Origin: a virus
IMG/VR virus record: IMGVR_UViG_3300034356_001231
Coordinates: 23,809-87,808 of that record
Strand: one strand, 5' to 3'
DNA length: 64,000 bases
The translations under genes were made by a program, and so were the position numbers. Below, in pieces: positions 24,105 to 34,108 of this stretch (position 1 is the first letter of the stretch; each line of letters begins with the position of its first letter). The notes under the pieces were generated by a model. That model ran no database searches, was not told the DNA's origin, and saw only the letters and a program-made list of their open reading frames with translations.

Positions 24105-24623
24105 ATGATTATATATAAAATCACCAACCTTATCAATGGTAAATTTTACGTAGGTAAGTCCACAAAAACTACCGAAGAAAGATTTAAGCGTCATTATTAC
24201 AATCACAAATCTGGTAACACCTATCTCTATAAGTCGATGAGAAAACATGGCTTCGATAATTTTGTTATTGAAACAATAGAAGAAACCACATATATCGACG
24301 AAAGAGAAAAGTTCTGGATTTCAGAACTGGCGCCACATTACAATATGACAAAAGGAGGAGATGGCGGTGATACTTCTAGCTCTCCAAATTTTATCGAAGG
24401 CATAAAGAAAAGACCGCCACCACCTCCCACTTATGGTATGCTCGGAAAGAAACAATCTGATAAGTTTTTTGAAGCTATCAGAAAATCCAATAGTCGCCCA
24501 GTTATGTGCGAAGGAAAAAGATATGCTTCTATCAACGAAGCTCAAGAAGCATATCCTGGTATTTCTATTCGCAAAAGATTAGACAATCCAAAGTATTCCG
24601 AGTTTTATAGATTAGAAAGTTGA
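24105..24623 (+). CDS. GIY-YIG homing endonuclease
   Basis: A 172-residue protein on the opposite strand to all neighbours. The N-terminus IYKITNLINGKFYVGKS is a complete GIY-YIG motif. It is followed by RFKRHYYNHKSG, the conserved Arg region, KHGFDNFVIETIEE, with the catalytic Glu region, and LAPHYNMTKGGDGG. The C-terminal part resembles NUMOD-type DNA-binding pieces (SDKFFEAIRKSNSRPV, YASINEAQEAY). It probably cuts phage DNA lacking the insert and spreads itself. It sits between gp44 and gp45, and its end overlaps the 3' end of gp45. Confidence 0.88.
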   Translation: MIIYKITNLINGKFYVGKSTKTTEERFKRHYYNHKSGNTYLYKSMRKHGFDNFVIETIEETTYIDEREKFWISELAPHYNMTKGGDGGDTSSSPNFIEGIKKRPPPPPTYGMLGKKQSDKFFEAIRKSNSRPVMCEGKRYASINEAQEAYPGISIRKRLDNPKYSEFYRLES

Positions 24624-25281: not shown

Positions 25282-26154
25282 TCACTTGTTCTTTGATTTC
25301 ATCATTTTCTTTGACTTCAATGCTCCAGGATCAGCAGTAGCTGAAGCACCAATCGAAGCAAGGTCAGCAAGCGAACCACCAAATATGTAAGTTCCAACAT
25401 GCTGCATCTTCATCCATGGACAGAACCATGTCTTAAGATCAATTGCCTGCGCCTTTTGACAGAACCAATAATCTTCTGAAAGATAACGCTTAGATACCGG
25501 ATCAATTTCTGCCTGGAAGAACTGAAGAATCTCACGGCTACCATCAAAATGCTCAGTGCGAACATGATCAGGCTTGTAAGAATACTGATCCTTATATGCG
25601 TCATAGAACTTAGTCATGGCCTTCTTAGAAACCATCATGAATCCAGTTCCGATCTCGAGAACTTCAACTGGCTCTGCGATTGGAATAGAAGTCTGATGAC
25701 CCTTGGGATTGAAAACATAATCACCAACGAAACGCTCTAGAACGTTTGGATCATCATCAGCAACACCCTTATCTACAGCGTGCTTAATCTTTTCCCAAGA
25801 GATACACTTCTTAGGATATGGGCCACCAATAATGTCATACTTATCTTCTTCAAGAGCCTGCAGAGACATTAGAGCAATAACATCCTGTGGATTGAATCCG
25901 ATGTCAGAATCAATAAACATTAGATGCTGTGATTCAGAACGCATAAACTCATCACAACAATAGTTACGAGCTCGAGTAATTAGCGATTCATTGAACAAAT
26001 AATAAAACTGAAGAGGAATACCATACTGCGTACATAGAGCAGAAAGATCTGCACACGAACGAGCAAACATACCAGCGCACTGTCCGCCATACATTGGTGT
26101 GGCGACAAATAACTTGCGCTCTCTTAGTTTTTCAATTGGGATCTTAATTTCCAT
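25282..26154 (-). CDS. GT-A-type glycosyltransferase
   Basis: A 290-residue protein. The start KLFVATPMYGGQCAGMFA is typical of this phage family. HLMFIDSDIGF supplies the DxD metal motif, and EIGTGFMMVSKKAM and a later EDYWFCQKA section mark the acceptor side. It transfers a sugar from a nucleotide donor. It sits between the clamp gene and the hypermodification cluster, so DNA-base glycosylation is a fair guess, but virion glycosylation is equally possible. Family confidence is high; acceptor unknown. Confidence 0.75.
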   Translation of the reverse strand: MEIKIPIEKLRERKLFVATPMYGGQCAGMFARSCADLSALCTQYGIPLQFYYLFNESLITRARNYCCDEFMRSESQHLMFIDSDIGFNPQDVIALMSLQALEEDKYDIIGGPYPKKCISWEKIKHAVDKGVADDDPNVLERFVGDYVFNPKGHQTSIPIAEPVEVLEIGTGFMMVSKKAMTKFYDAYKDQYSYKPDHVRTEHFDGSREILQFFQAEIDPVSKRYLSEDYWFCQKAQAIDLKTWFCPWMKMQHVGTYIFGGSLADLASIGASATADPGALKSKKMMKSKNK

Positions 26155-26166
26155 AATATACCTTTC

Positions 26167-26355
26167 TTATGCTGTAATAGTATTATGATATTTACAAGTG
26201 TTACAATGAACTTTTTTTCTAGGAGGGTTTGATAGTAAGACGATGCCAGGTTCAGACAAAACTAATTCATCACCACAAGCTGGACACTGAATGCCAGTGC
26301 CATGCCTTTCTCTCAATAATCTTTTCTCTTCTTCGTATTCCTCAATAGTCTTCAT
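26167..26355 (-). CDS. Small zinc-ribbon protein
   Basis: A 62-residue protein with two CxxC pairs, CPACGDEL and CNTCKY, about 31 residues apart, typical of a zinc ribbon. The N-terminus is Glu/Arg-rich (EEYEEEKRLLRERHG). An ATGA-type overlap links it to the preceding gene. It may bind DNA or a protein partner; no specific family. Confidence 0.65.
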   Translation of the reverse strand: MKTIEEYEEEKRLLRERHGTGIQCPACGDELVLSEPGIVLLSNPPRKKVHCNTCKYHNTITA

Positions 26356-26699
26356 TTCCTATCCTTATAATGATCTGCATAAAGCATCATTATAACATAA
26401 TGAAGAACTTTTAGCAAGTCATCTTTATTGCTGCCATGCTTTTTACCATAGCGCCAAAGATATTTGATAGCAGTGTTTCGGAAGGTAGGCATAGAATCAC
26501 CAAGAGCAAGCCACACATCGAAACATTCTATATTCTCTTCTTCAGTCATATAATGCTGCCCATATGTCTTATCTATATAGGCGTGGAAATCAGCAATAAT
26601 CTGATCTTCCATATATTTGTATTTAGGCGCAACCTTTCCAGCAACATCCAATTTATAACTAACACCTGATGGTATTTCACTATATAACCTGCTCATCAT
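26352..26699 (-). CDS. DUF3310-like protein
   Basis: A 115-residue protein. The segment RNTAIKYLWRYGKKHGSNKDDLLKVLHYVIMML is the signature of the DUF3310 family, common in phage nucleotide or replication modules, with a helical arrangement of acidic and basic residues. Function is not established. It overlaps the P-loop kinase gene by four bases, so it is co-transcribed with the hypermodification cluster. Confidence 0.65.
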   Translation of the reverse strand: MMSRLYSEIPSGVSYKLDVAGKVAPKYKYMEDQIIADFHAYIDKTYGQHYMTEEENIECFDVWLALGDSMPTFRNTAIKYLWRYGKKHGSNKDDLLKVLHYVIMMLYADHYKDRK

Positions 26700-27232
26700 G
26701 CCTCCAAATATTTCATAATGTAATCCACAATAATCTTCTGATCTTCTTTGTTATTGTTTTTAAATTTAACAGTGTTAAACATAAGAGTCATATTCGTTAG
26801 AATATTTGCAATCTTAGTTTCTCTTCCCTGTAACCAAGTTTCGTTTTGGTTACTTCCACGCTCCTTATAACGTTCTTGCCGAACAGCTTTATCGGTTTCT
26901 AGATAAATTATATCAGTGTTATAATTGTTCACACAATGTTCTAAGAACGTTGATGTGAAAAGACGGTCGCCCTCAAAAAGAACAACCGAATCTTTATGCA
27001 AACTTGCTAAGAATTTAACTGCTTCTGGCTGAACTGCCATAGACATACGATCTGTTCCAGAGAAAGTTTCACCTTCGTCATACTTACCCAAAATATAATT
27101 ACAATCATATTGAAGATACGGAACAAGTTTTACTTCATCATAAACTTTTATCCAATTAAATTTCGAAATAATTTCTTTCATTAAAGTAGATTTGCCAGCA
27201 CCTGGCTCGCCACCAATCGCAAATACAAGCAT
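26696..27232 (-). CDS. P-loop kinase, candidate hydroxymethyluracil DNA kinase
   Basis: A 178-residue protein with Walker A GGEPGAGKST (Lys14). VVLFEGDRLFTSTF is Walker-B-like, and a lid-like RYKERGSNQNETWLQGRETK contains several Arg residues. The size and shape fit nucleotide/DNA kinases used in thymine hypermodification, where the enzyme phosphorylates 5-hydroxymethyluracil in DNA. That role is inferred from the adjacent aGPT-Pplase and TET/JBP genes; alone it would be just a small-molecule kinase. Its start overlaps the aGPT-Pplase stop. Confidence 0.65.
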   Translation of the reverse strand: MLVFAIGGEPGAGKSTLMKEIISKFNWIKVYDEVKLVPYLQYDCNYILGKYDEGETFSGTDRMSMAVQPEAVKFLASLHKDSVVLFEGDRLFTSTFLEHCVNNYNTDIIYLETDKAVRQERYKERGSNQNETWLQGRETKIANILTNMTLMFNTVKFKNNNKEDQKIIVDYIMKYLEA

Positions 27233-28230
27233 TATGTAAACCTTTCAAGTCCGACCTTTTCAGGCTCAACAAACAAACCTGTGCAGTCTAGAATACCATT
27301 CTCACTATACAAAGCCATTTTACTATTGTTTATGTGATTAGTCAATAGTTTATTATTTAGAGTTTCATTACGAGCGTCCCACATTGGTTGCCAATCAATA
27401 CCATCCCATCCATCTTTTTCACACTGAGTAATTTCTTCAGCCTGACGATCTAGATAATAACCAAGATATCGACCATGTTTTACTCTGAATAACTTTTTAA
27501 AAGAACAGAGACATGTTTCCATATCAAAATAATCAGTGTCAGGAAAGTCTTTCTTAACTTCTTCTAGAATTAGATACGCCTGTGCTTCCAGATAAGCAAG
27601 TTGACTGACATCTAATTTTTTATCAATCCATTCAGGCTTACCAAGAGCGAAGCATAAACCATTGCGGTGAGATCTTGAGCCAGAATAATCTTCAAGCATT
27701 AGACTGCTCGGTTCAATTGGTAAACCGCAACATTGCTTTAATGTTTGCATGTAGAACCAAGTTGAATATCTACCAAACTTATGAAAGTTTCCCTTGACCT
27801 CGTCCCATAGTAAACTGAAACTTAATTTAGGGCTACCCGGAGCAAGGAAATCTTTAAACGCTTCTGCTTGCGATCTATCACCAACCCAGTTTTTATAAGA
27901 TTCAAACTGAGCAGGTAGATGGCCTTTGTTCCATTTAGTATCTGTTTGATACCGTAGACGTTTATAATTCTTACTGTTCCAATCTTTCAAACGATCAAGA
28001 CCAACAAGTTCCATATCAGGAAACTCGTTCCAGATAACCCACGTTGTCGGAAAATGATACGTTGTACCGTAGATCCAAGCAATCCAGAGTTTCTGTTCTC
28101 TGTTATGTTCGAACCTACGGAACAAGTAATTGGTCATAAAGATAGCGGGGTCGCAATCCTTAATGGAAAGCGACCACCGATACCAGTTTATAAAATCTTG
28201 CTTACGCTGCTTTACGATTTGCTGGTTCAC
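27232..28230 (-). CDS. aGPT-Pplase family protein (amino acid:DNA transferase type)
   Basis: A 332-residue protein with the pattern FINWYRWSLSIKDCDPA, EQKLWIAWIYGTTYH, WVIWNEFPD, RLRYQTDTKWNKGH and GSRSHRNGLCFALG. I recognise this as the alpha-glutamyl/putrescinyl-thymine pyrophosphorylase family, members of which attach amino acids to activated hydroxymethyluracil in phage DNA. Conserved His, Arg and Asp residues are abundant but catalytic ones are not mapped here. It overlaps the ParB-fusion gene by 29 bases and the kinase by 1, so the three are surely co-expressed. Confidence 0.7.
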   Translation of the reverse strand: MNQQIVKQRKQDFINWYRWSLSIKDCDPAIFMTNYLFRRFEHNREQKLWIAWIYGTTYHFPTTWVIWNEFPDMELVGLDRLKDWNSKNYKRLRYQTDTKWNKGHLPAQFESYKNWVGDRSQAEAFKDFLAPGSPKLSFSLLWDEVKGNFHKFGRYSTWFYMQTLKQCCGLPIEPSSLMLEDYSGSRSHRNGLCFALGKPEWIDKKLDVSQLAYLEAQAYLILEEVKKDFPDTDYFDMETCLCSFKKLFRVKHGRYLGYYLDRQAEEITQCEKDGWDGIDWQPMWDARNETLNNKLLTNHINNSKMALYSENGILDCTGLFVEPEKVGLERFT

Positions 28231-29542
28231 TTATTACCTTATTTGTCCTGGTGTCCCAGAAGCAAGGAAGAAATTCCAACTCGATCCATTCAAGTTTAGC
28301 AATGGCCAAACATTCACGGACTTCTTGCTCAAGAACATCTCTCTCAAGATATTCTTCAACATTCTTAAAGTGAATGAATATTTTGCCTTTCGGATTATTT
28401 CTTGCCGAGGGACGATTCTTTGTCTTTTGGCGCAAACTATTTACCACACCACCAATACCCGAGTGAATGACAGTGCTTATAGACTGACTGATACAACCAG
28501 CATAAGGATTTTCTGCAAGGTAAGAATTTACCTTCTTCTTCAGATCCTTATCTACCCAGTTATAGAAATTATACTTGCTGTTAATTTCGTTAGTGAAATA
28601 ACGATCTTTAGCAGCGCTGATCAAACTCTTTAGAGACTTCTCAGAGAATTCTCCAAGATAAAGATCAAATACAATTTCTTCCATTTCATCTGAATCAAAA
28701 GGAATTCCATCGACATAAAGAGCTTCAATCTTGCGCTTCACATCTTCCTTAGAATTACCTTCCTTGACAACTGGCTCGTGATTCATAAGAACCCCGAAAT
28801 GATCCATAATAGAAGGATCATCAAGGAATTCGTCAGAATTAATATAAATTACGGGCACAGTTGCCCATTTAGCTTCAATTGCTGCACTGAGCGTATGATT
28901 ACCATCAAGAATCTTTTTCTTGCCGTCACGGAAAACAACAACCACAATAGGATTGATATGCTGATTGGCACGCTCTGGATCGTTCATACGATCTACAAGT
29001 TTATTTACATGATGATTATGACGTAGCTTAAAACGAATTTGAATTCGTTCGAAATTCGCCAACTCTCCAACGTAAACATTATGGACTTCATAATGTTTCT
29101 TGATTTTGTTTTCTTTTACCTTATTTGCAATCGATCGAGCAAGACGAATATGCTCCTTATACGTAGATCTAGCTTTTTCGATAATGAAATCTGTAGAAAT
29201 ACATCGGCTAACGATCTCTCGCATTTTATCTGTGACGTGCGAAAGACTACATCCAGCACCACCACCATTTGTCTTATTATACATATCTGGGTTATTACGA
29301 GCATCTAATACATCAAGCATATAATGCTCGAGCGAGATACACTGTTCTAATGTGCCTTCAAAAAATTCTACTCGACGAAGAAACCCTTTGTTCCAGGCAT
29401 CATTAAACGCTGGATCAGTAGAGCTCGAAGTGTAATAGTCTGAAACATTCTTATCAGAAAGTTTATGATAACCTACATAGACAATCTTAGTAGTTTCACG
29501 ATTATACCAAAGATAACAAATAGCCTGTTTTGCAGTTTTCAT
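28202..29542 (-). CDS. GIY-YIG / ParB-Srx-like fusion protein
   Basis: A 446-residue protein. Residues 1-100 show a GIY-YIG-like fold (ICYLWYNRE, IVYVGYHKLSDK, a later YNKTNGGGAG). Around residues 190-240, INPIVVVVFRDGKKKILDGNHTLSA followed by WATVPVIYIN is a ParB/sulfiredoxin-like domain with the conserved DGNHT loop. The C-terminal 200 residues are helical and unassigned. ParB-type folds bind nucleotide triphosphates or act as kinases or nucleases; the role here is unknown. It has its own upstream promoter and lies inside the hypermodification cluster. Confidence 0.7.
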   Translation of the reverse strand: MKTAKQAICYLWYNRETTKIVYVGYHKLSDKNVSDYYTSSSTDPAFNDAWNKGFLRRVEFFEGTLEQCISLEHYMLDVLDARNNPDMYNKTNGGGAGCSLSHVTDKMREIVSRCISTDFIIEKARSTYKEHIRLARSIANKVKENKIKKHYEVHNVYVGELANFERIQIRFKLRHNHHVNKLVDRMNDPERANQHINPIVVVVFRDGKKKILDGNHTLSAAIEAKWATVPVIYINSDEFLDDPSIMDHFGVLMNHEPVVKEGNSKEDVKRKIEALYVDGIPFDSDEMEEIVFDLYLGEFSEKSLKSLISAAKDRYFTNEINSKYNFYNWVDKDLKKKVNSYLAENPYAGCISQSISTVIHSGIGGVVNSLRQKTKNRPSARNNPKGKIFIHFKNVEEYLERDVLEQEVRECLAIAKLEWIELEFLPCFWDTRTNKVISEPANRKAA

Positions 29543-29604
29543 AGGTCACTCCTTTTTGGACCGTTTCAAAATATTGGGCTTCCTTTACATCACCCAATAA
29601 ACAT

Positions 29605-29633
29605 ATACTACCACTATTCTGCGAAAATGTCAA
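29605..29633 (-). promoter_or_regulatory. Sigma70-type promoter (TTGACA-17-TAGTAT)
   Basis: Minus strand: TTGACA (29628-29633), 17 bp, TAGTAT (29605-29610). The gap to the fusion gene start (29542) holds an AAAGGAGTGACC ribosome-binding site. It gives the lower half of the hypermodification cluster its own transcription. Confidence 0.65.
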
Positions 29634-30186
29634 GTCCTTTATATTCGACGAAGAGCTCTACGCAGCCTCCCTTTCCTTTTTTCGTTGCAGCCTTATAGAT
29701 TATATCGTCGAGAGAGTAATCAATCTTCTCGAATTCCGAAGAATTAATCTTAAACATAGCCAATAGACATCCACTTTTCTGTTTACCTACGAATTGTATG
29801 CCTAGTTTTTTGTAGAACGGTATAGCTGGAATTTCCGAAGAAACTCTGAAATAATGTGCGCTCGAATAGAAAGCGTAATACAAAGAATGATTGCATAGCT
29901 TTCTAGCAACTCCTTTGTTCCTATGCGCATAAAAAGTATGAAGCAATTGAAGGTTAGCCGTATAAGGTTTACGTTTCGAAATAGTTGTGAGAATGGCTCC
30001 GGCAAGGTCATCGCCTTCCCAGAGCCCAACAACTTCATTCCATTTGTCTAGCATGTCGCATTTAGCAACAAATGTTTTGGCAAACTTATCTTCTTTACGA
30101 TCGCTAATGTTTGCTATAAATTGTTCTTTTGTAACTGTTTTAAACTGCAATGAACTCTCGGGATTTCTTTCCTCGCTCTTTTCCAT
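29614..30186 (-). CDS. GNAT-family acetyltransferase
   Basis: About 190 residues. The ATG at 30186 has GGGAG upstream. LLHTFYAHRNKGVARKLCNHSLYYAFYSSAHYFRVSSEIPAIPFYKKLGIQFVG carries the GNAT acetyl-CoA loop (R/KxGVA) and the following FYKKLGF strand. It overlaps the amidoligase gene by 47 bases. In a DNA-modification cluster it could acylate the amine of a hypermodified thymine (inference); alternatives are acetylation of a host protein or an antibiotic. Confidence 0.65.
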   Translation of the reverse strand: MEKSEERNPESSLQFKTVTKEQFIANISDRKEDKFAKTFVAKCDMLDKWNEVVGLWEGDDLAGAILTTISKRKPYTANLQLLHTFYAHRNKGVARKLCNHSLYYAFYSSAHYFRVSSEIPAIPFYKKLGIQFVGKQKSGCLLAMFKINSSEFEKIDYSLDDIIYKAATKKGKGGCVELFVEYKGLDIFAE

Positions 30187-31012
30187 ATTTTGTTTTCTCC
30201 CATGACGTATAAATCTCGTGATCATATTTTAGTTCTGGAAATTTATAATCGCCTTCAAGAAGAATTTGTAGAACATCTGGGCCATTATTGAGCGCAGCGT
30301 CTATAAACGCTTCAACAAATCTAAATGAATCTTCTAACTCTCTACGGTCAAAAGAATTACGGAAACAACGGAACTCAATAGTTCCTGTGTGTTTCATACA
30401 ATATGTATTAATTGCATAACGGAAAGGACGACCCATAGAAACGCCATCTTTACCTGCGCAATGTAACTTAATAAAGTGTTCAAAGTCGGTTGTAAGATTA
30501 ATAATGTTGTTGCACATATAATCAGGCATCAACCTACCACAATCTAACTTCAAATAAGTCTTTGCTGTTTTTGTAGAAGCCATATCTGGGTGCAATCTAA
30601 ATGCATGGATACGATCAACTACTACATGTTGATTTTCTTTGATGTATGCAACCAACCGTTTGAGCGCATCAACATCTTCTTTTAGACCTGGAACATATAC
30701 ATGAACATGATTATGAGAAATACAATTACTAGTAGGATTGTTACCGTGCGATTTATAAAAATCAAGAATCTCAAAAATTCTGTCAACCTGTTCCTTCCAA
30801 GTTTTCGTTGGTCTTACATTAATTTCGCCGCCAAATGGTGGTTCAATACCAAGAGGATCACAAGCGATACCACGATAAGGTGGATTGAGATTCACTACGT
30901 CAGTTTCTGAAAATTCCCATTTACCTAAATGTTCTGGAAGTGGGAGACGACGATCAACATCCCCCACTTCCATTTCAAACCCCCATGTGAAGTCTTTTTT
31001 GTTATATGTCAT
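30140..31012 (-). CDS. Amidoligase-type COOH-NH2 ligase
   Basis: A 290-residue protein. FTWGFEMEVGD at the start is the E-x-E metal motif. GGEINVRPT, NHVHVYVPG and GTIEFRCFRNS complete the pattern of the amidoligase family (glutamine-synthetase-like fold), which forms amide or peptide bonds. It directly follows a class II glutamine amidotransferase, a natural source of ammonia or partner. In this cluster the likely substrate is the carboxylate of an amino-acid-modified base (inference). Confidence 0.7.
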   Translation of the reverse strand: MTYNKKDFTWGFEMEVGDVDRRLPLPEHLGKWEFSETDVVNLNPPYRGIACDPLGIEPPFGGEINVRPTKTWKEQVDRIFEILDFYKSHGNNPTSNCISHNHVHVYVPGLKEDVDALKRLVAYIKENQHVVVDRIHAFRLHPDMASTKTAKTYLKLDCGRLMPDYMCNNIINLTTDFEHFIKLHCAGKDGVSMGRPFRYAINTYCMKHTGTIEFRCFRNSFDRRELEDSFRFVEAFIDAALNNGPDVLQILLEGDYKFPELKYDHEIYTSWEKTKYGKERGKKSREFIAV

Positions 31013-31692
31013 TGCAAATCCTCAATAGCAGGAAACTCATACTTATTATAGCTTACAATTTTGAAATTTTCAACAATAAAATGTTCATACATAGAAGCAG
31101 TAACTTGAACGTCAAGACCGCTTCTTTTCAGAATATCTCTGGTAGAAGCAAATATAATACCGTTCTCATTGTAAGAATAATGAAGTGGTCGAGATTCATT
31201 CCGGAATGCGGTAAGAACTTTATCCTTGTCAATAGTGCAAACAGACATGCTTGCAGGATGAAACTTATGTAAAGGAACTTCACCAGTTTCTAAACAACGT
31301 AAAATTAATTCGCTATCGTTCTTTGTAATTACATCATATCCAAAAGTTTGTTTCCATTGTTCTGGATCTTCTTGAGAAATGACTCCATTGTGGACAATAG
31401 AAAGTTCTTCAGTAGCCATTGGTTGATTGTAAGCAAGATCGCTCGTTGAGTAACGAACATGGCCAATGCAATAAAGATTGCCATCTTCGTTTACCCAACT
31501 GGGAATATCCTGATTGTTGATAAAGGTACAGGCGTTCACAGGTTCTTTGATAGTATGAACCTTACTGTTCTTTACATATGATACTCCTGTAGCGTGCTTG
31601 CCACGAATCATTGATTGAATAAAAAGCCGACGAACAAGTTCGAATTCGTGCTCGCTCGGTTTCTTTATAGCTATTCCTAATACTCCACACAT
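31009..31692 (-). CDS. Class II glutamine amidotransferase domain protein
   Basis: A 227-residue protein beginning MCGVLGI, with the nucleophile Cys2 exposed after Met removal. RGKHATGVSYV, GHVRYST and SIVHNGVI are the glutaminase signatures (GATase_6 type). It hydrolyses glutamine to glutamate and ammonia for a partner enzyme, here probably the adjacent amidoligase, with which it overlaps by four bases. No synthase domain is fused. It also overlaps the stop of the dioxygenase gene upstream (TAATG). Confidence 0.8.
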   Translation of the reverse strand: MCGVLGIAIKKPSEHEFELVRRLFIQSMIRGKHATGVSYVKNSKVHTIKEPVNACTFINNQDIPSWVNEDGNLYCIGHVRYSTSDLAYNQPMATEELSIVHNGVISQEDPEQWKQTFGYDVITKNDSELILRCLETGEVPLHKFHPASMSVCTIDKDKVLTAFRNESRPLHYSYNENGIIFASTRDILKRSGLDVQVTASMYEHFIVENFKIVSYNKYEFPAIEDLQ

Positions 31693-33062
31693 TAGAAAAA
31701 TGATTCCAATGAAGCCACTTCGTCTTTGCCGTAAGGATCTTTCATTCCATGAGCGTGAAGATAATCATACCATTCTTGCTCTTCCCACATTCCAGGAGAA
31801 ACACCATTCCACAATGGACGATGTAATGGATGATCTTTATTCATACGACGTTCTTCCACAAATTGCTTACGCAGCAATTCATAGTCATATGATTTCAACT
31901 CAAGCATTTTCTCACGGAAATAGCAGACTACAGATATGCGCTCACAAGAAGGATCATCAGGCTTATTAAGCACGATAGGAGTATTACCATGGATAATCTC
32001 ATGGTTGTTAACGAGTAACAAATCGCCAGGACGCACATTAACAGCGATACGATACTCAGGAAATATAAGATAACCACCAGTATATTCTCCAGAACCAAGA
32101 ACAAGTAGATTAGATAAACCAGAATCAAGATCACCAGCATCTCGATGACATGCTGTCCGAAAAGTCTTGTTCACAGTCAATGTAGTAAACACTGTTTCAG
32201 GAACAAGAAACCTTGGATCAAGTTTATCTGCTGCAGCTTTCTGATTGCCCCAACGCCAAGGAAGTAATTCTCTAAAACCTTTATTCAGTGTTTGGAGAAA
32301 TGGATACGCCTTTGAAAACAATTCTGGATGGTTTTCAGTATATGCAGTAGCACGACCATACGGAATACGTGGGTATCGATCGTACCAACCAGCAACGCCC
32401 GAAAACACTGACTTTGCATAGTTAGTAGTTGATGCCCACTTTTCAGCAACCTTTCTCGCCTCTGCACGCACTTCTTCGTTTGGTTTATTAGATAAACCAT
32501 CAACCCATTTATCAAACCAACCATGATATTCCGGATACACTTTCTGGACTTCTGAACGTAACCATACAGTACCACGAGTTTCATCTGCAGGTTTAAATTT
32601 AGGATCTGCATACTTAGCGCGAATAGATGCAACTGAATTGTCATCAATTACCTTTGCACCATCATCCATAAGAAAGTCTAAAATCTCCTGTTGATAAGGA
32701 GTAACCCAATCACGACCACCACGACCTTCACATGCTAGCATGTCACCACGAGGACCAGCAGCAAGACCACGATTTTGAGATTCAGTAGCTGCTTGCCTTA
32801 GACCTTCATATGCCTGATCGCATTCTTCTTTAGTGAAGTAGTTCTTACGAAACTTAAATGCAATACGTAATTCATCGTTGCCTTTATCGCAATCTTCGCA
32901 TTCTTTAGTCCCACAATCTGCTTTGGTAAGCGGATCACATAGCGGTGGCATATAACAATCAGTATCTTCTTCAATCAAAATATCATAATGACTCTCGTCA
33001 ACGAAAGTGCCAAGAAGATGTTCACAATCATGTTTTTGACGAGCAACAATACGTCTTACCAT
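31692..33062 (-). CDS. TET/JBP-family 2-oxoglutarate/Fe(II) dioxygenase
   Basis: A 456-residue protein; the ATG at 33062 follows GGAG, and a GTG three bases upstream is the alternative start. The core TLTVNKTFRTACHRDAGD carries the HxD iron ligands (His306, Asp308). LVNNHEIIHGN gives the distal His and RISVVCYF the 2-oxoglutarate Arg (about 375). LSNLLVLGSGEYTGGYL matches JBP/TET proteins. A CxxxxCxxC cluster near residues 50-60 may bind zinc. JBP/TET enzymes oxidise the methyl group of thymine or 5-methylcytosine; here oxidation of thymine to 5-hydroxymethyluracil is the likely first modification step. Confidence 0.75.
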   Translation of the reverse strand: MVRRIVARQKHDCEHLLGTFVDESHYDILIEEDTDCYMPPLCDPLTKADCGTKECEDCDKGNDELRIAFKFRKNYFTKEECDQAYEGLRQAATESQNRGLAAGPRGDMLACEGRGGRDWVTPYQQEILDFLMDDGAKVIDDNSVASIRAKYADPKFKPADETRGTVWLRSEVQKVYPEYHGWFDKWVDGLSNKPNEEVRAEARKVAEKWASTTNYAKSVFSGVAGWYDRYPRIPYGRATAYTENHPELFSKAYPFLQTLNKGFRELLPWRWGNQKAAADKLDPRFLVPETVFTTLTVNKTFRTACHRDAGDLDSGLSNLLVLGSGEYTGGYLIFPEYRIAVNVRPGDLLLVNNHEIIHGNTPIVLNKPDDPSCERISVVCYFREKMLELKSYDYELLRKQFVEERRMNKDHPLHRPLWNGVSPGMWEEQEWYDYLHAHGMKDPYGKDEVASLESFF

Positions 33063-33442
33063 CACTTATCTCCGTATAGAACACTTTTAATATCTGGAGC
33101 AGTCCAGCCTTCGGGTTTCAAAATCTTACCATCATCACGACGAACTACTTTACCGTCTACTAGTTTTTCCATGTTAGATCTATGGACTTCGTTGAAGACT
33201 CTGTCCAATGGAATCCCATAAGATGCAGCAGTGCCACAAACAATGTAAATAATATCAGCAAGCTCTTTGGCGACATTCTCTAGATCATCCTTATCTTCAC
33301 CATCAAAATATTCTTCTACTTCTTCTTTTAAAAGTTTACGACGCAATACACGTTCATTCTCATCAGGAAATTCAGGCACTTCGCTGACATTCTGACCGAC
33401 TGCTGTTTGAAACTTTTTTACTTCTTGAAACATATTAGACAT
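33062..33442 (-). CDS. MazG-like nucleotide pyrophosphohydrolase
   Basis: A 126-residue protein with the all-alpha NTP-pyrophosphatase motif: LLKEEVEEYFDGED followed by VAKELADIIYIVCGTAASYG, giving the ExxE-x(n)-ExxD metal site. Such enzymes hydrolyse (d)NTPs or ppGpp-type nucleotides. In a phage that modifies thymine, removing canonical or inhibitory nucleotides, or lowering the stringent alarm, are both plausible. It overlaps the dioxygenase start (TGATG). Confidence 0.8.
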   Translation of the reverse strand: MSNMFQEVKKFQTAVGQNVSEVPEFPDENERVLRRKLLKEEVEEYFDGEDKDDLENVAKELADIIYIVCGTAASYGIPLDRVFNEVHRSNMEKLVDGKVVRRDDGKILKPEGWTAPDIKSVLYGDK

Positions 33443-33998
33443 AGATCCACTCCGGAGGGTTACGTTTTTTCCATTTATGAAGATGTGTTTTACCCATCTT
33501 ATAATAGTTACGATAATTTATTATTGGGTCAGAGTCAATAATATATTCTGGCGCCATACACGAAGGCATGGTAGTCATATCATACTCTTGTAAATTTTTA
33601 GGTGGAGAAGCCAACGTCGCTGATATTTCTCCATAACACTTATGCGTCTTTTCATAACGATAGGTATACTCTTGCATCAACGCAAAGAAATGATCTACCA
33701 ACCAATTGTAATTCTCGACGCTACTGCGAGCCCATACAGCAGATGGGTGATTGATGTGCGTAGCTGAATATATAATTTGTTCGCGCGAGTCATTTAGTAA
33801 CCACCATTTTTTCTTGCGTGTTTTAATTTTACCATCTTCCTGCTCAACCTGCACCTCGAGTTGAATTTCTCGACCGTCTAGTAAACGATGTGCTGTAGAA
33901 AGCAACTGAGCGGATTCGAGGATCATCTTAACAACATGACGATCTACCATCCACTCGGCTGCTTCCACGGGGTTATCAGAAATATAGAAAATATTCAT
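33435..33998 (-). CDS. Conserved T4-like phage protein, unknown function
   Basis: A 187-residue protein starting MNIFYISDNPVEAAEWMVDRHVVKMILESAQLLSTAHRLLDG, a pattern I recall from many T4-like and cyanophage genomes without assigned function. The conserved DRHVVKM and AVWARSS pieces hint at a helical enzyme or nucleic-acid-binding fold. The C-terminus ends PPEWIYV. The ATG at 33998 overlaps the stop of a 37-residue gene, so the two are coupled. Confidence 0.65.
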   Translation of the reverse strand: MNIFYISDNPVEAAEWMVDRHVVKMILESAQLLSTAHRLLDGREIQLEVQVEQEDGKIKTRKKKWWLLNDSREQIIYSATHINHPSAVWARSSVENYNWLVDHFFALMQEYTYRYEKTHKCYGEISATLASPPKNLQEYDMTTMPSCMAPEYIIDSDPIINYRNYYKMGKTHLHKWKKRNPPEWIYV

Positions 33999-34108
33999 TT
34001 TTTTCTCATATACCAATAAACAAATATTGCGAACACAATTAGTATAAACCATTGTTCATAATATTCAAGCATTAAATTCAGTTTATAGAAATTAAAAAAA
34101 TGATTCAT
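33995..34108 (-). CDS. 37-residue single-span membrane protein
   Basis: Between the deformylase and the 33435 gene a 37-codon frame starts at ATG 34108 (overlapping the deformylase stop) and ends at TGA 33995 (overlapping the next ATG). The product has a polar head, then a hydrophobic helix (WFILIVFAIFVYWYM) and a basic end RKK, so it should lie in the inner membrane. ATGA-type overlaps on both sides argue strongly that it is translated. Function is unknown. Confidence 0.7.
   Translation of the reverse strand: MNHFFNFYKLNLMLEYYEQWFILIVFAIFVYWYMRKK

Follow-up and report, generated by a model that had tools for sequence, protein, structure and literature searches.

A recurrent TET and amidoligase gene cassette of T4-like phages with a predicted role in thymine hypermodification

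Here, we describe a compact gene cassette of an uncultivated T4-like phage that probably directs the hypermodification of thymine in phage DNA. The window analyzed is a 64,000-base stretch (positions 23809-87808) of the 87,808-base IMG/VR contig IMGVR_UViG_3300034356_001231, which encodes a T4-like replication and recombination set of clamp, clamp loader, and gp46 and gp47 homologs. On the minus strand, the cassette comprises genes for a TET/JBP oxygenase (TET), a protein with a class II glutamine amidotransferase (GAT) domain, an amidoligase, a GNAT acetyltransferase, an amino acid:DNA transferase (ADDT), and a P-loop kinase. In 23 of 23 related loci with 6 kb or more on either side of the amidoligase gene (deep loci), the TET, GAT, GNAT, ADDT, and kinase genes adjoin it, in two gene orders. 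Because the same six genes recur in all of these deep relatives, their clustering is a real traveling unit, beyond chance. Gene content, families, folds, linkage, gene swapping, and C-terminal tails were computed directly.

From these data we infer all chemical steps, the amine and acyl donors, clamp binding, and the end product of the following pathway. TET would oxidize thymine of the phage DNA to 5-hydroxymethyluracil, which the kinase would phosphorylate to yield 5-phosphomethyldeoxyuridine (5-phosphomethyl-dU). ADDT would then swap the phosphate for an amine, giving 5-aminomethyl-dU; ammonia derived from glutamine via GAT is the most likely amine because this ADDT clade was never found without GAT. 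5-Aminomethyluracil is carried by phages (PMC11550810). With ATP, the amidoligase would couple the 5-aminomethyl amine, by way of the carboxylate, to an amino acid or another acid, and GNAT would acetylate the product, so that 5-aminomethyl-dU would be acylated by the amidoligase and/or GNAT. During this process, C-terminal tails would tether TET, ADDT, and GNAT to the sliding clamp.

Results

The TET/JBP, ADDT, GAT, P-loop kinase, GNAT, and MazG/PRA-PH proteins of the window all matched Pfam families above cut-off (Table 1), the ADDT family being PF18724 of the amino acid:DNA transferase/aGPT-Pplase group. An earlier sequence-only reading of this DNA had named an aGPT-Pplase at 27232 and a TET/JBP protein at 31692, both matched significantly here, and its calls of a class II GAT with Cys2, a GNAT acetyltransferase, and a P-loop kinase were borne out as well. 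It had also recognized the HxD...H...R signature of TET, with numbering one too low. Counted from the GTG start, the residues are His307, Asp309, His359, and Arg376, each at least 97% conserved among 134 TET proteins, with HxD...H taken as iron ligands and Arg as the 2-oxoglutarate residue. GAT aligns with PurF-type proteins of the PDB, and its Cys2, Arg80, Asn102-Gly103, and Asp126 are invariant in 31 relatives. As a separate observation, the TET homologs of the cultured phages DLP6 (L004) and Cr30 (L005) carry the GenBank label 'SNF2 DNA repair protein' and match the window TET/JBP protein across nearly the full length.

For the ADDT model (predicted local distance difference test [pLDDT] score 91.1, C-terminal tail modeled at low confidence), the sole credible PDB fold match was the 5-phosphomethyl-dU glycinyltransferase PUGT (8z2m), with a probability of 1.00, followed by the next protein at 0.04. 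The amidoligase proposed by the sequence-only reading fell short of the Amidoligase_2 (PF12224) gathering score of 22 bits (window protein, 13.8 bits, E 0.053), and its best relative, with 21.9 bits (1.8e-4), also remained just below it. Positions E13/E15, E63, H102/H104, and E213/R215 are conserved in this protein, and its model (pLDDT 94.7) retrieved a list of 50 PDB fold matches that all belong to the GS/GCS superfamily, the types being glutamine synthetase, gamma-glutamylcysteine ligase, YbdK, and PafA. Because of the conserved motifs and the unanimous fold list, we assign the protein as a GS/GCS-like amidoligase despite its subthreshold Pfam score. PDB sequence searches with the amidoligase and ADDT profiles returned nothing significant.

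The window contig and 27 related records, with contigs of 146, 162, and 168 kb among them, yielded no C5-methyltransferase (PF00145), and thymidylate synthase was likewise not found in the window contig or the 23 cassette contigs; the lack of a visible thymidylate synthase had already been pointed out in the sequence-only reading. These absences and the families of ADDT and kinase make thymine the likely substrate of TET, and TET on thymine is likely the visible route to 5-hydroxymethyluracil in the cassette phages. The order TET, kinase, ADDT proposed earlier is supported, and we regard this thymine pathway as likely. Other phage TET enzymes reportedly act on 5-methylcytosine, alongside C5-methyltransferases, which would make the hypermodified base a cytosine. 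We consider such a substrate improbable in view of the C5-methyltransferases missing from the 27 records, of ADDT and kinase groups described for 5-hydroxymethyldeoxyuridine (5-hmdU), and of the isolated phage Simon (PQ683277), which has a thymidylate synthase-family protein where TET is missing.

Amidoligase relatives in IMG/VR numbered 201 by search and 432 by a later profile search; the searches return at most the closest 80 relatives each, and distant contexts are under-sampled. Among 84,980 species genomes of bacteria and archaea, the amidoligase profile gave only 2 matches, and one of these lies on a 3.6 kb contig whose gene order is that of the phages. The deep loci also carry gp46 (15/23), clamp (14/23), and MazG (10/23) genes. 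ParB was detected in only 12 of the 23, and an essential part in the pathway for the ParB/GIY-YIG protein is not supported.

A TET-based search uncovered sister phages with the same flanks (MazG and TET on one side, DUF3310 and clamp on the other) but other middle genes, many of their TET proteins being 79-87% identical. In these phages the middle consists of a TET-associated glycosyltransferase (TAGT) alone, or of distant ADDTs with a kinase and others, e.g., inositol-1-phosphate synthase. MazG and DUF3310 are ruled out as pathway members, since both persist when a lone glycosyltransferase replaces the cassette; being kept across differing middle genes, they are flanks, and of the MazG-like enzyme listed in the sequence-only reading the family stands and the pathway role falls. 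The PHROG 1574 protein also stays in place when the cassette changes.

With the GAT-linked ADDT clade, three kinds of middle were found. Between GAT and ADDT, V1, the window type, has amidoligase 1 and GNAT, with or without ParB; V2 has amidoligase 2 and a low-molecular-weight (LMW) phosphatase, with or without a glycosyltransferase; and V3 has only a different GNAT (GNAT2). An initial check found no fusions among the window families, and one was later seen in L271, where the amidoligase is fused to an LMW phosphatase domain (L271:7992-9374) and GAT overlaps ADDT directly. This layout agrees with GAT-ADDT and amidoligase-phosphatase as working pairs. The fusion gene adjoins GAT-ADDT and a radical SAM-like open reading frame (ORF), and its contig was assigned by binning to a WOR-3 bacterium.

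GAT follows ADDT rather than the amidoligase. In the ADDT tree, long branches part the GAT-linked rows from all others. After collapse at 90% identity, 64 ADDT loci had at least 3.5 kb of upstream sequence, and GAT was present in 54/54 loci of the GAT-linked clade versus 0/10 other ADDT loci; conversely, ADDT lies near 61/61 GAT representatives with enough sequence. GAT occurs without a neighboring amidoligase in the loci L118, its relative L226 (a 146.6 kb contig), L219, L220, L231, L232, and L278, and the GAT of L118 is 89% identical to that of the window despite the missing amidoligase. In Simon, the modification row encodes ADDT, a flavin adenine dinucleotide (FAD) oxidoreductase, amidoligase, LMW phosphatase, 5-hmdU kinase domains, the thymidylate synthase-family protein, and an HD phosphohydrolase; no GAT was found in this row. 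An obligatory pair of GAT and amidoligase is thus contradicted by GAT without a neighboring amidoligase in V3 phages and by amidoligase without GAT in Simon, and the proposal of the sequence-only reading that the two together amidate or extend an attached amino acid finds no support as an obligatory step.

Simon also indicates what the two enzymes might do separately. Its ADDT matches PUGT 8z2m at 1e-60. In PaMx11, the phage from which PUGT comes, the row is similar, and an acetyltransferase stands in the slot of amidoligase and phosphatase, after ADDT and the FAD enzyme. Lee et al. reportedly described in 2022 a flavin enzyme that cleaves the glycinyl group. As the slot after ADDT is filled by an acetyltransferase or an amidoligase in the two backgrounds, we read the amidoligase as a putative amine N-acylating enzyme, and from the same comparison GAT as the candidate that replaces the FAD enzyme in the TET phages' route to 5-aminomethyl-dU. 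Taken jointly, the ammonia and acylation assignments may equally well prove right or wrong.

A different division of labor follows the sequence-only reading: ADDT attaches an amino acid by its amine, GAT and amidoligase form a glutamine-dependent amide synthetase that turns its carboxylate into an amide, and GNAT acetylates. In favor of it, the two genes lie side by side and mostly co-occur, glycine is what the solved ADDT relative transfers, and some CmoY relatives have a glutamine-hydrolyzing domain, with ammonia as their presumed substrate (PMC12783734). However, GAT occurs without the amidoligase in V3 phages and the amidoligase without GAT in Simon, and GAT tracks the ADDT clade irrespective of the middle genes. 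We consider the amide synthetase unlikely, if still a serious competitor to GAT-derived ammonia and acylation.

The C-terminal tails offer a possible link to replication. Many TET proteins end in SLESFF-like tails, and TET, ADDT, and GNAT often share this tail type. A motif defined after inspecting the tails, [LI][DESNAG]x[FW] near the C-terminal end, was present in TET (96/115), ADDT (80/107), GNAT (25/70), GNAT2 (5/5), and TAGT (11/12), compared with 0/94 GAT, 0/81 amidoligase, and 3/98 kinase proteins and 26/1013 other ORFs. After collapse at 70% identity, the counts were 32/45 for TET, 14/26 for ADDT, and 12/37 for GNAT versus 33/764 for others. The motif was also found in 10/16 polymerase-sized proteins (two confirmed as DNA polymerase B), the polymerase tails compared being from the genomes of related phages, not from the window phage. 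Within a genome, the tails match that of the polymerase. In L118, the polymerase ends in STLEDFFND, TET in ASLESFF, and GNAT2 in SSLESFLS; such tail pairs are likewise seen in C48C1 (TLEDFFG and SLEEFFV) and in Stenotrophomonas phage DLP6 (polymerase ATLDSFFA, TET ATLGDFFV). T4 attaches its polymerase, gp55, and gp33 to the clamp through tails of this kind, which can stand in for one another (PMC2988020, PMC3012046), and the T4 alpha-glucosyltransferase binds the clamp (PMC13216743). By analogy, sliding-clamp-docking tails probably bring TET, ADDT, and GNAT to newly made DNA. We found no literature report of clamp binding by TET or ADDT.

These tails also bear on whether GAT, amidoligase, and GNAT belong to the DNA modification module at all. 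They might form a separate small-molecule or peptide/cell wall pathway merely located beside TET, kinase, and ADDT, similar to the phiEco32/LUZ24 clusters; such a role was proposed for phage GAT/amidoligase pairs (PMC10580990), and LUZ24 has GAT and a RimK-domain (ATP-grasp) protein, with no ADDT in the stretch read. Yet GAT covaries with one ADDT clade, and GNAT, GNAT2, and TAGT share the clamp-type tail with TET and the polymerase. Moreover, tblastn found the amidoligase family in only two cultured phages, beside thymidylate synthase, kinase, and ADDT genes in Simon or deazaguanine genes in Vibrio phage 2.275.O, neither of them LUZ24-type. A separate pathway therefore appears rather remote. 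With the Simon amidoligase as query, no relative was found in IMG/VR. The amidoligase gene of Vibrio phage 2.275.O (L008:7866-8978) adjoins QueC-, QueF-, FolE-like, and GAT-like genes, which suggests a role in deazaguanine-type modification.

All eight minus-strand open frames listed by the sequence-only reading as overlapping are present at their coordinates (Table 1), and the overlap is interrupted by a 71-base gap between 29542 and 29614. Its GIY-YIG/ParB fusion is reduced to a weak ParB signal, with no GIY-YIG domain found at Pfam E=1.

Table 1. Genes of the cassette, its flanks, and neighboring features (window positions)
Feature	Position	Strand	Basis or remark
TET/JBP oxygenase, 457 aa, C-terminal tail ASLESFF	31692..33065	-	Tet_JBP 4.6e-23; conserved residues; tail motif
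Class II glutamine amidotransferase (GAT) domain, 227 aa, Cys2	31009..31692	-	GATase_6 3.6e-12; invariant residues; PurF-type PDB matches
GS/GCS-like amidoligase, 290 aa	30140..31012	-	Conserved motifs; fold; 201 phage relatives
GNAT acetyltransferase, 203 aa, tail GLDIFAE	29614..30225	-	Acetyltransf_10 2.3e-7; in 23/23 deep loci
ParB-like protein, possible GIY-YIG N-terminus, 446 aa, optional cassette member	28202..29542	-	PHROG ParB-like 3.2e-6; ParB_N (Pfam) 0.052
ADDT, GAT-linked clade, 332 aa, tail GLERFT	27232..28230	-	ADDT 3.5e-24; fold; GAT association
P-loop kinase, 178 aa, Walker A at residue 8	26696..27232	-	Ploopntkinase3 9.8e-13; in 23/23 deep loci
MazG/PRA-PH-like pyrophosphohydrolase, lineage flank outside cassette	33062..33442	-	PRA-PH 9.5e-19, MazG 3e-6
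DUF3310 protein, lineage flank outside cassette	26352..26699	-	DUF3310 3.9e-5
Conserved neighbor	33435..34052	-	Weak, subthreshold pyrimidine dimer DNA glycosylase match (0.015)
PHROG 1574 protein, function unknown	25282..26154	-	8.6e-56; most close relatives have it between the clamp and DUF3310 genes
ORF resembling GIY-YIG homing endonuclease	24105..24623	+	Between clamp loader and clamp genes of opposite strand

Discussion

Several observations speak against GAT-derived ammonia and amine acylation, or limit the assignment to thymine. GAT and amidoligase co-occur in almost all V1/V2 loci, where a shared reaction is possible, and the related phages in these comparisons represent nonindependent events. 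The amidoligase was not found elsewhere in four of the GAT-only V3 contigs, in a search that had no positive control and on contigs that are possibly incomplete. Each amidoligase fold match is weak on its own (best E 0.009), the sole solved ADDT relative transfers glycine rather than ammonia, and the window kinase, with its Ploopntkinase3 match and Walker A motif, matches none of the named HMUDK (5-hmdU kinase) models. Incomplete contigs and host methylation may also limit the thymine inference.

With these points considered, we give an even chance to the cassette as a whole acting in post-replicative thymine hypermodification with GAT, ADDT, amidoligase, and GNAT in the favored order. It is tempting to go further and regard the middle genes as interchangeable chemistry modules that phages exchange, the acylating sets being GNAT2 by itself or amidoligase combined either with GNAT or with LMW phosphatase, the latter set sometimes including a glycosyltransferase. 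Clamp-tethered enzymes would then build an acylated, N-acetyl-capped, peptide-like thymine side chain from 5-aminomethyl-dU made by GAT and ADDT, with a GS-like amidoligase as the acylating enzyme. We offer this tentatively, as a version somewhat more likely to fail than to hold in all its parts.

Known systems share parts of this cassette. Thymidine hypermodification of the PaMx11/M6 type relies on a thymidylate synthase homolog, a 5-hmdU kinase, the ADDT/PUGT glycinyltransferase, an FAD enzyme, and an acetyltransferase. Common to both are a kinase and ADDT acting, in the window by prediction, on a 5-hydroxymethyluracil derivative, the ADDT fold, and an acetyltransferase, whereas the window has TET in place of the thymidylate synthase homolog, GAT in place of the FAD enzyme, and the amidoligase in addition. 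In the TAGT systems of the sister phages, with the same TET and flanks, a glycosyltransferase, likewise with a clamp-type tail, replaces the GAT-amidoligase-GNAT-ADDT-kinase part. The phiEco32/LUZ24 clusters resemble the window in a class II GAT adjoining a ligase; however, no TET, ADDT, or kinase is annotated in the LUZ24 stretch read, and tblastn with the window amidoligase found no phiEco32/LUZ24-type phage.

Iyer and colleagues reportedly discussed phage TET/JBP neighborhoods in 2013, and the combination of TET, GAT, amidoligase, and GNAT may have been predicted before. Already known is a cluster of ParB, TET, aGPT-Pplase2, and 5-hmU kinase in Rhodococcus phage Tonitrus (PMC11955845), which shares TET, ADDT, kinase, and ParB with the window; no GAT, amidoligase, or GNAT is named there, one of the five genes being hypothetical. 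An ATP-dependent amide ligase acting on phage cytosine is known as well: CmoA/CmoX/CmoY form an amide bond on a phage DNA base, and some relatives have a glutamine-hydrolyzing domain (PMC12783734). That system differs in its cytosine substrate, its carboxymethyl-based chemistry, and its AsnB-like adenylating ligase, and the window contig is without a C5-methyltransferase-family gene of the CmoX type. The end base of the pathway proposed here is probably undescribed, and recruitment of its enzymes to the clamp is put forward as a new hypothesis, prompted by sequence comparison.

Hypermodified thymine may protect the phage from bacterial DNA-cutting defenses. The cassette points to new base chemistry in aquatic phages, with a testable enzyme order, and the natural swap set, in which the same TET and flanks surround other middle genes, helps to assign a step of the chemistry to every gene. 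From the clamp-type tails one can envisage how modification enzymes might work on freshly replicated DNA, and GS-like DNA acylases would offer a new means of attaching side chains to DNA.

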